Shown: positions 27,386-30,193 of the stretch, piece after piece
How positions within the stretch are numbered: the stretch's first letter is position 1
Layout of the letters: every line of letters starts with the position of its first letter
Origin: Acidilobus sp. 7A
GTDB lineage: Archaea > Thermoproteota > Thermoprotei_A > Sulfolobales > Acidilobaceae
Reading direction: 5' to 3'
Length of the DNA stretch: 64,000 bases
Assembly (NCBI RefSeq): GCF_003431325.1
Contig: NZ_CP010515.1
Coordinates: 434,001 to 498,000 of the forward strand
Notes under the pieces: model-generated
Seen by the model: only the letters and a program-made list of their open reading frames with translations
Database searches by the model: none
What the model was told of the DNA's origin: nothing
Position numbers and translations under genes: made by a program

Positions 27386-28138
27386 CTATTTTGAGCTATT
27401 CTTATTGTTACTTTCCCTCTTAAACTCGCCTACCTCCCACGGAAATATTATCCACTTGTTAACCTGCTCTGCGTAATAGTCAGGGACCAGCTTAGTCCAG
27501 GGCTTCACGTAGAGCGCCGCCGTCCTGATGTCTGATGGCATGTAAAGCGAGAGCGCCTGCACAGCGAACTGCAGGGTGAGGCCAGAGTCGCTTACGTCGT
27601 CAACAAGCAGGACTTTCCGGTCCTTTATTGGGAGCGTGAGGGGCTGCCTGAGGAAGGGCCTCTCCATCCTCTGTCCCGGGGATATGTAGAGCTTAACCTC
27701 TATGGTGCCTATGTCATCAATCCCAAGCCTGTCAGCCAGTAGCCTACCAGGTATGAGGCCACCCCTCATTATACACACTATAGCGTCAGGCCTAAAGCTG
27801 GAGGCCCCAATGCCCTCAGCTATCTTGTTGACGGCCTCGTCCACCTGAGACCATGTTATCAATTGAAACTTCTCGTTCCCGCCATGATTTATAGGCAGGA
27901 TAACCACCTCGTTGGCAGGGCGGCCCCTCTCAAGGAGCCTGCTGTCGACGCCGTCAACGAAGGCCAGGAACCCAGGCTTCGGCATTCCGTCCTGCGACAC
28001 GGCAGAGGAGAGCCCTGGGTAGCGTGCTATAAGGGCCCTCAGGGCTTCAGTCCAGCTGACACCCTCCACAAGTATCTCAGCCTTACCATCCGCGAGATCC
28101 TTTAGAGCCCCCAGTAGCTTAACCTTGACCTTAGTCAA
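27386..28138 (-). CDS. MoaD/ThiS-like ubiquitin-fold domain fused to a phosphoribosyltransferase
   Basis: Residues 1-87 form a beta-grasp domain of MoaD/ThiS type (KVKVKLLGALKDLADGKAEI, WTEALRALIARYPGL, FLAFVDGVDS, NEVVILPINHGG) ending exactly in the Gly-Gly that such proteins normally carry at their C-terminus. Two residues later a type I phosphoribosyltransferase begins (KFQLITWSQVDEAVNKIAEG) with its PRPP loop VLLVDDVSDSGLT at about 176-188 and VCIMRGGLIPGRLLAD at 121-135, like xanthine/guanine PRTases. The frame is continuous. The start is TTG 28138, 13 nt after rps17e. Whether the Gly-Gly is cleaved, as in polyubiquitin-type precursors, is unknown. Confidence 0.85.
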   Translation of the reverse strand: MTKVKVKLLGALKDLADGKAEILVEGVSWTEALRALIARYPGLSSAVSQDGMPKPGFLAFVDGVDSRLLERGRPANEVVILPINHGGNEKFQLITWSQVDEAVNKIAEGIGASSFRPDAIVCIMRGGLIPGRLLADRLGIDDIGTIEVKLYISPGQRMERPFLRQPLTLPIKDRKVLLVDDVSDSGLTLQFAVQALSLYMPSDIRTAALYVKPWTKLVPDYYAEQVNKWIIFPWEVGEFKRESNNKNSSK

Positions 28139-28151
28139 GGGGTTGAGCCCC

Positions 28152-28379
28152 TTATGCAGCCTTGGCCTCCTCAGCCGCGCGCCTCTGCCTCTCCTTATTT
28201 ATCTTTACGAGGCTTGTTATGTACCCTGCCACCTGGTTTCTGAGCTTCTTGGAGGACCAGTTCGTGAGCTGGGAGACGACCTTCTTGTTGTTTTCAAAGC
28301 TCTCATTGAAGAGGTTTGGGTACTTGGTCAGCAGCTCCCTAGCAGTTCTCTTAACTAGAGTTGTCCTGACCTTGCCCAT
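28152..28379 (-). CDS. rps17e: ribosomal protein S17e
   Basis: This is a small-subunit protein shared by archaea and eukaryotes. The 75 residues begin MGKVRTTLVKRTARELLTKY and contain SKKLRNQVAGYITSLVK, both diagnostic for S17e; the tail is Ala/Glu-rich. ATG 28379 follows a GGTGG site; an in-frame TTG four codons upstream is less likely. A TATA box (GCTTTTAATG on the minus strand, 28411-28420) lies upstream. It heads the run with the UbL-PRTase fusion and carbamate kinase. Confidence 0.95.
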   Translation of the reverse strand: MGKVRTTLVKRTARELLTKYPNLFNESFENNKKVVSQLTNWSSKKLRNQVAGYITSLVKINKERQRRAAEEAKAA

Positions 28380-28450
28380 TTTTACCACCAAGGACTGTGA
28401 GGGGCTCGGGCATTAAAAGCATTAGGAAGAGCCCGTAAGTCGTAAGAAAA

Positions 28451-28507: not shown

Positions 28508-30193
28508 ATGGCCTCGCAGATAGAAAACATGGGAGTTCCAGTAATTATACTCAAGGAGGGTAGTCAGAGGACTACTGGCAGGGAGGCCCTGCGCAACAAC
28601 ATGATGGCAGCCATAGCTGTGGCCGAGATCCTCAAGACGACCTACGGGCCAAAGGGTATGGACAAAATGCTTGTTGACAGCCTGGGTGACGTAACTATAA
28701 CCAACGACGGAGCTACCATACTCGACAAGATGGACATACAGCACCCAGCCGGCAAGATGCTAGTCCAGGCCGCTAAGGGGCAGGATGAGGAGGCTGGCGA
28801 CGGCACTAAGACCTCGGTCATATTCGCTGGGGAGCTTCTGAGGCAAGCCGAGGACCTCATAGACAGGAACATACACCCAACCATAATTATCCAGGGCTAC
28901 AAGACTGCCGTTGACAAGGCTGTCGAGGTGCTTAACAGCATAGCTGAGCCCGTGTCCATAGACGACACCGAGAAGCTGATAAAGGTTGCTATGACAAGCC
29001 TTAACAGCAAGGCCGTAGGTGAGGCAAGGGAGTACTTCGCCAAGATAGTTGTTGATGCCGCCAGGGCCGTCGCTGAGATGAGGGGTGACAAGCAGTACTA
29101 CGTTGACATAAACAACGTCCAGATAGTGAAGAAGCACGGCGGAGCTCTGACGGACACGCAGCTGGTTAACGGCATAGTCATAGACAAGGAGGTAGTCCAC
29201 CCTGACATGCCGAAGAGGGTTGAGAAGGCTAGGATAGCACTCCTTGACGCCCCGCTTGAGATACAGAAGCCTGAGATAGACATGGAGATAAGCATATCAT
29301 CACCTGACTCCATCAAGAGGCTCCTTGACAAGCAGGAGAAGATTCTGCAGGACAAGGTCGAGAAGATAGCCGCCACTGGCGCAAATGTTGTGATCACCCA
29401 GAAGGGCATTGACGACATTGCCCAGCACTTCCTGGCCAAGAAGGGCATACTGGCCGTCAGGAGGGTCAAGAGGAGCGACATAGAGAAGCTCGCCAAGGCC
29501 ACTGGAGCTAAGATAGTTACAAACCTTGATGACCTAAAGCCTGAGGACCTAGGGTACGCTGACCTCGTCGAGGAGAGGAAGGTAGGCGAGGACAAGATGG
29601 TCTTCGTAGAGGGTGCCAAGAACCCGAAGAGCGTGACTATACTGGTAAGGGCCGGCTTCGAGAGGATGGTTGATGAGGCTGAGAGGGCCATCCATGACGC
29701 ACTGAGCTCCGTCGCCGACGCAATAATGGATGGCAAGATAGTCGCTGGCGGAGGCGCCGTCGAGGCGGAGGTCGCTAAGTCGCTCAGGGAGTGGTCAAAA
29801 GGCGTCCCAGGCAAGGTGCAGCTGGCCGTGGAGGCTTTCGTGAAGGCCCTTGAGGCCCTCCCACAGACGCTGGCCACCAACGCTGGCTACGACCCCATAG
29901 ACATATTAATGAAGCTCAGAAGCACCCACTCTGACCAATCAAAGAAGTGGTACGGTATAGACCTCAACACAGGCAACATAGTTGACATGTGGGCTAAGGG
30001 CGTAGTTGAGCCGCTGAGGGTTAAGGTGAACGCCTACAAGGCGGGCACGGAGGCTGCAACGCTGATACTCAGGATAGACGACATGGTAGCTGCCAAGAGG
30101 AGCACCACAGGCGGGCCAAGCGGCAAGAAGGAGGGCGGCAAGGAGGAGGAAGAGTCCTCACCTTCAACATCTTCAAGCGGCTCAAGCGACTAA
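28508..30193 (+). CDS. thermosome subunit (group II chaperonin)
   Basis: The 561-residue CCT/TCP-1-type chaperonin refolds proteins in a closed double ring. Signatures are [29 protein letters not shown] spread over about 43-72 (in shorter motifs [10 protein letters not shown] and TNDGATIL), the GDGTK ATPase motif at about 97-101, and [10 protein letters not shown] near 416-425. The C-terminus is a Gly/Lys/Ser-rich tail without the common GGM repeats. The ATG is preceded by GGGTGA and a TATA box at 28451-28460. Alpha or beta type cannot be assigned from this sequence alone. Confidence 0.96.

Follow-up and report, generated by a model that had tools for sequence, protein, structure and literature searches.

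What becomes of a ubiquitin-like (Ubl) protein when translation runs past its terminal double glycine into a complete enzyme? This question is raised by one open reading frame in the window, the 64,000-nucleotide stretch of Acidilobus sp. 7A analyzed here, in which a Urm1-type domain continues into a purine phosphoribosyltransferase of the HGXPRT type. The unchanged double glycine at the join strongly suggests that a protease cuts Urm1 from the enzyme, in the manner of the eukaryotic ubiquitin-ribosomal protein fusions. With a probability of roughly 0.7, the Urm1-HGXPRT protein is a precursor that would be matured by a JAMM cut after Gly87; we infer that the protein is cleaved, where and by which protease, and that both products are active.

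The fusion gene and its two domains

The features of the locus are summarized in Table 1. The initial annotation had recognized the open reading frame and the LPINHGG segment at residues 81 to 87, and both are confirmed with a correction of the strand to minus; the plus strand over positions 27386 to 28138 is full of stops. The complete phosphoribosyltransferase described behind the double glycine was likewise borne out, with both the transferase fold and the PRPP loop present in the C-terminal half of the fusion. This half matches Pfam Pribosyltran with an E value of 5e-21, and its best solved relative is the HGXPRT GpT-2 from S. solfataricus (4z1o, E value of 4e-40; Foldseek E value of 2.6e-20). 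Specificity for the 6-oxopurines hypoxanthine, guanine, and xanthine is predicted from these closest structures.

Table 1. Coordinates of the Urm1-HGXPRT fusion and its neighbors in the window
Feature	Position	Strand	Remarks
Urm1-HGXPRT fusion gene	27386..28138	minus	250 aa; TTG start at 28138; stop 27386-27388; 43 fused orthologs
Urm1 domain, residues 1-87	27878..28138	minus	Ubiquitin-like β-grasp fold; NCBIfam Urm1_like, fold matches including 4wwm, S17e synteny
HGG, residues 85-87	27878..27886	minus	Junction without variation; JAMM is predicted to cut after Gly87
HGXPRT domain, residues 91-245 (approximate)	27404..27868	minus	PF00156; 4z1o, E value 4e-40; Foldseek ranks 1-12 all SsHGXPRT
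PRPP-binding loop LLVDDVSDSGLTL, residues 177-189	27572..27610	minus	No variation in the VDD, SD, G, and L columns across fused orthologs
Ribosomal protein S17e gene	28152..28391	minus	Immediately upstream of the fusion; PF00833
Thermosome subunit	28508..30193	plus	Divergent; same conserved neighborhood as Sulfolobus Urm1

The N-terminal half shows no Pfam match at an E value of ≤0.001 and only a weak match to the NCBIfam model Urm1_like (NF053661; 27.3 bits, with a cut-off of 70). PF09138 is above its cut-off in several Urm1 orthologs, not in the window protein. The fold matches SAMP1, MoaD-like, and Urm1 structures, including 4wwm, with Foldseek TM scores of 0.65 to 0.81, a search that by itself cannot tell Urm1 from SAMP1 or MoaD. 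The domain had first been labeled MoaD/ThiS-like, an identity that was dropped in favor of Urm1; it appears to be an ortholog of the Sulfolobus Urm1 because of its S17e synteny and its HGG ending, which decide the assignment. The MoaD/ThiS label also does not fit, since the window genome encodes a separate MoaD-MoaE fusion and no Mo/W cofactor or thiamine genes lie beside the Urm1-HGXPRT gene, whose neighbors are S17e, the thermosome, and an amino-acid-kinase-family (carbamate-kinase-like) gene.

The S17e gene is the immediate neighbor of Urm1 in about 95% of the loci inspected within the order (Sulfolobales in the GTDB sense). For Sulfolobales, Makarova and Koonin have described the same operon of S17e and Urm1, accompanied by a divergent thermosome gene (PMC2948915). 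The S17e neighbor, which the initial annotation had considered perhaps coincidental, is a case of conserved synteny that by itself says nothing about the fusion.

Further genes of Ubl pathways are encoded in the window genome: one ThiF-type E1 above the Pfam cut-off, two PP-loop ATPases of the tRNA-thiolating kind, the MoaD-MoaE fusion, a ThiS-family protein ending in HGG-SLSI (L142:775-1074, minus strand), whose short tail would need trimming, and another ThiS-family protein ending in GGG. The order-wide homology search gave no second Urm1 match in this genome, so that any Urm1 used there has to come from the fusion. A second HGXPRT of the same subfamily was likewise not found in the window genome; the other match is a more distant transferase with 37% identity over residues 92 to 234.

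Conservation of the junction and origin of the fusion

Searches of first 60 related genomes and then the whole order found the full-length fusion throughout the Acidilobaceae (f1), in 43 genomes of 14 genera. The taxa bearing it include Acidilobus, Caldisphaera, and Aeropyrum, with fused records also in Thermodiscus and Candidatus Hestiella. Among the best 80 loci of a scan of 84,980 species, full-length fusions belong to the Acidilobaceae only, and two other full-length alignments among these 80 loci are adjacent genes rather than fusions.

Together with two species carrying a split version, the 43 fused genes that were read form a family set of 45. HGG is kept in all 45 members, the two with split genes included, and in 124 of the 126 Urm1 loci overall, with C termini read in 126 genomes of the order. 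Conservation of the double glycine in the same fusion of related genomes had been named as a check at the outset, and the outcome is that the fusion exists in 43 genomes, none of which has lost the Gly-Gly. The 43 fused orthologs in one family and the HGG in 45 of 45 members argue that the fusion is not due to chance.

The invariant positions of the N-terminal domain amount to a handful (L, F, G, D, R, P, H, G, and G), and the residue right after HGG is only 37% identical across the family. In the window protein, 8 residues separate the double glycine from Trp96, the first invariant transferase residue, and this distance ranges from 5 to 15 residues across the family. The earlier description of a fusion without a linker is correct insofar as the joint is short, but it holds only roughly. 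All four glycine codons are used at each of the two glycine positions, which indicates selection on the amino acids, at the protein level. AlphaFold, run on an alignment of 26 fused proteins, models two confident domains (mean pLDDT of 90.5; 95.5 for the Urm1 domain with AF2) and leaves their arrangement unfixed (pTM of 0.68). The sole segment with a pLDDT below 50 comprises residues 85 to 87, the HGG itself, and its conservation is therefore not one of structural packing. Conservation in the joint is highest in the tripeptide with the least predicted structure, which fits a motif that an enzyme recognizes, not a packing element.

Elsewhere in the order, the Urm1 ortholog ends exactly in HGG-stop, and an exposed C-terminal glycine is found in the families f4, f8, f10, and f11. 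A transferase gene follows or overlaps the HGG-stop Urm1 gene in another frame in f4, f8, f10, and one f7 genome, and a contig scan added two more records with the same unfused pair (L184 and L215). Since unfused HGG-stop Urm1 genes adjoin or overlap the transferase gene in these other families, the simplest origin of the fusion would be an ancestral tail-to-head operon whose frame break was lost. Two sister species within the Acidilobaceae, G027 (L034) and G069 (L119), have returned to two overlapping frames through a +1 shift immediately behind HGG; here, the Urm1 frame ends in HGGVFGG-stop and HGGMLGG-stop, respectively, and the transferase frame is open from a TTG codon. Because this shift recurs in both assemblies, a real fission is more probable than a random error, with a shared programmed frameshift as a possible alternative.

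Extended Urm1 proteins and JAMM proteases

A precursor would need a protease to liberate its Gly-Gly end, which is the reason for comparing Urm1 C termini with JAMM. Archaeal JAMM proteases cleave SAMP precursors as well as linear fusions of SAMPs, and a bacterial JAMM releases MoaD from MoaD-MoaE (PMC6043591; PMC8832034). A JAMM protease, which the initial annotation had proposed to look for, is encoded in the window genome on contig C1 (1125062-1125436, minus strand) with HTHPDGDAAPSQMD intact and matches PfJAMM1 (5lda, E value of 1.7e-17). JAMM is above the Pfam cut-off in nearly all reasonably complete Acidilobaceae genomes.

The Urm1 C terminus read in 126 genomes was set against the presence of JAMM as detected with a custom profile, with counts given for genomes that are at least 75% complete. 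JAMM is present in 57 of the 62 genomes in which Urm1 extends past HGG, in 22/22 of those outside the Acidilobaceae, and in 30 of the 55 genomes with an exposed HGG. The five JAMM-negative genomes with extended Urm1 are Acidilobaceae drafts of 75 to 92% completeness. The association is significant by Fisher's test at the genus level (P = 0.0004; P = 0.006 without the Acidilobaceae) and by permutation within families (P = 0.026), statistics that overstate independence, given that the genomes are related and about four to five origins of extensions lie behind the association. The extensions are of several kinds, comprising HGXPRT in the Acidilobaceae, Cgi121-type domains in f2 and f5, and tails of 1 to 14 seemingly meaningless residues in f3, f5, and f2. 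Cgi121 fusions and short tails show the same association as the HGXPRT fusion; what the extended Urm1 proteins have in common is JAMM, not the partner.

The association is one-directional: an extension implies JAMM, not the reverse. The Sulfolobaceae have an exposed HGG, yet they carry a short, divergent JAMM homolog with HxH..PS..D, and JAMM is likewise present in several genomes of f2 and f3 whose HGG is exposed, which indicates that JAMM has other jobs. A strict rule of JAMM occurring only where Urm1 is extended, derived from the Pfam JAMM model, was softened after the custom profile found the Sulfolobaceae homologs. These homologs (L260 to L273) lie below the Pfam Prok-JAB cut-off or are missed by it, with the proline of HTHP mostly replaced (HTHS and HTHE), and they may represent an uncharacterized Sulfolobus JAMM.

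With regard to other substrates, the MoaD-MoaE fusion as the sole reason to keep JAMM was weakened by a ThiS search in 40 genomes. There, the JAMM-positive genomes G006, G008, G010, G014, G016, G018, and G022 gave no ThiS match in an open reading frame of MoaD-MoaE size, and G040 gave such a match without a JAMM match. Free ThiS-family proteins with tails are possible JAMM substrates, and the MoaD-MoaE fusion and the HGG-SLSI protein are further candidates in the window genome. In G051 (C1:214620-216533), an E1, a Ubl-containing open reading frame, and a JAMM gene lie side by side as a compact Ubl cassette.

The Urm1-Cgi121 fusions have an internal HGG, lie beside S17e, and occur in L080 to L088 (f2 genera g56, g57, and g58) and in L052 (f5, G039). 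Their C-terminal domain measures ∼160 to 185 amino acids; a CGI-121 Pfam match was obtained for two of five such proteins scanned (L087 and L052), and the others are similar in sequence. These fusions are independent of the HGXPRT fusion. Within genus g16 of f3 (L103 to L115), the tails after HGG vary between related species, from none through SI, LA, AI, KE, LSN, and LTLLLG to 14 residues, as if such variation were neutral in a JAMM-positive background.

Maturation, alternative readings, and known systems

In the proposed mechanism, the gene would yield a Urm1-HGXPRT precursor that is cut after Gly87, once translated, by the PfJAMM1-like JAMM metalloprotease encoded elsewhere in the genome. 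The cut would free a mature Urm1 with an HGG tail that the ThiF-type E1 could adenylate, leading to sulfur transfer, protein conjugation, or both, and the free HGXPRT would salvage purines. The fusion would go back to a urm1 gene (HGG-stop) and an overlapping transferase gene that lost their frame break, an event presumably tolerated because JAMM could restore the Gly-Gly end. The initial annotation had left open a precursor, a permanent regulatory fusion, and a sulfur carrier tied to nucleotide metabolism. It is the precursor, with cleavage as a prediction, that is supported by the invariant Gly-Gly in a disordered junction, the HGG-stop orthologs in the ancestral operon, and the JAMM accompanying extended Urm1 proteins. 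For the order as a whole, we cautiously favor the view that Urm1 C termini are free to gain tails or enzymes wherever JAMM is present, which would make JAMM an obligatory Urm1 maturase there; in the Acidilobaceae, the sole Urm1 source would be tied one-to-one to the synthesis of a purine-salvage enzyme, as an archaeal parallel to the ubiquitin-ribosomal protein genes.

Urm1 might instead stay attached permanently, as a proteasome-recognition or allosteric domain of a bifunctional or regulated purine-salvage enzyme. The Sulfolobus 20S proteasome with PAN does recognize artificial N-terminal Urm1 fusions (PMC4569737), and the fact that the two genes are paired in operons of several families leaves room for a functional tie. 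This reading is nevertheless unlikely: it leaves unexplained why HGG never varies in a disordered joint whose downstream sequence does, as well as the same pattern of extension and JAMM with unrelated partners (Cgi121 and random tails), and the gene has been split again in two sister species. Quite unlikely, too, is a mixed use in which part of the protein is cut to supply Urm1 and the uncut fusion is also functional, e.g., with a Urm1 tag keeping the transferase inactive or unstable until cleavage. It can draw on the old and recurrent adjacency of Urm1 and transferase and on a precedent reported for Haloferax, of an enzyme (SAMP1-modified MPT synthase) reversibly inhibited by an attached Ubl and released by HvJAMM1 (PMC4443979). 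No inhibitory interface is evident in the sequence, however, and the AlphaFold model with its pTM of 0.68 does not fix the arrangement of the domains.

Separate synthesis of the transferase by internal initiation or frameshifting, with the fusion as one of several products, is very improbable. The frame break in G027 and G069 with a transferase frame open from TTG would suit it, but an in-frame ATG, GTG, or TTG between the double glycine and the transferase start occurs in only 19 of the 43 fused genes, and internal initiation would provide no free Urm1 tail; with start codons at the joint not conserved, internal initiation was rejected. A false join of two genes in sequencing or assembly, for which the separate, overlapping genes of other families might speak, is hardly conceivable and was ruled out by the same in-frame fusion in 43 genomes. 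These include single-contig genomes, which we take to be those of Acidilobus saccharovorans, Caldisphaera lagunensis, and Aeropyrum pernix.

The preferred precursor reading bears on Urm1 biology in general. Urm1 is viewed as primitive and as linking sulfur carriers with ubiquitin, and we know of no report of eukaryotic Urm1 being made from a precursor. An enzyme reversing Urm1 conjugation has not been identified so far (PMC12625751). The family-wide fusion with its intact Gly-Gly, the co-occurrence of JAMM, and the repeated independent Cgi121 fusions point to JAMM as the Urm1 maturase, and a possible de-urmylase, in these archaea. This idea is directly testable with one purified protein pair.

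Both halves of the fusion have known free-standing counterparts. The Sulfolobales Urm1 (arCOG00540; 4wwm; Saci and SiRe Urm1) shares the fold, the HGG ending, and the S17e and divergent thermosome neighbors; in Sulfolobus, it ends in HGG-stop, whereas 163 enzyme residues follow HGG in the window gene. The S. solfataricus HGXPRT GpT-2 (4z1o, 4zfn, and 5bqp) shares the whole transferase domain with the PRPP loop and is free-standing without a link to Urm1, unlike the window HGXPRT. The literature searched contains no earlier report of a Urm1-HGXPRT fusion, and the main texts of the two main archaeal Ubl surveys and of the archaeal fusion/fission survey do not mention it. Aeropyrum pernix was part of the data set of one survey; arCOG00540 was at that time called Sulfolobales specific.

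Ubl proteins with sequence beyond the Gly-Gly are known from the eukaryotic ubiquitin-ribosomal protein fusions and from the archaeal ubiquitin/SAMP precursors cut by Rpn11/JAMM (C. subterraneum). In contrast to these precursors, the partner in the window protein is a metabolic enzyme, the Ubl is Urm1, and the cleavage is predicted. The Thaumarchaeota Ubl-Cgi121 fusion (PMC2948915), which the Urm1-Cgi121 fusions in f2 and f5 resemble, also joins a Ubl to an unrelated protein near S17e but differs in the partner domain. The closest mechanistic precedent is the MoaD-MoaE fusion cut by JAMM in Deinococcus (DR0402), a linear Ubl-enzyme fusion with an internal Gly-Gly and a JAMM in the genome; MoaE, however, uses the MoaD tail in one active site, and HGXPRT is not known to share any chemistry of this kind. 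Both Ubl precursors and fusions of a Ubl to an enzyme that are cut by JAMM are already known; within these kinds, the proposed Urm1-HGXPRT precursor and the rule connecting Urm1 tails with JAMM are new. The Acidilobaceae fusion, together with the JAMM co-occurrence and the Cgi121 fusions, also suggests that archaea repeatedly evolved precursor fusions of a Ubl to a partner, of the ubiquitin-ribosomal protein type.
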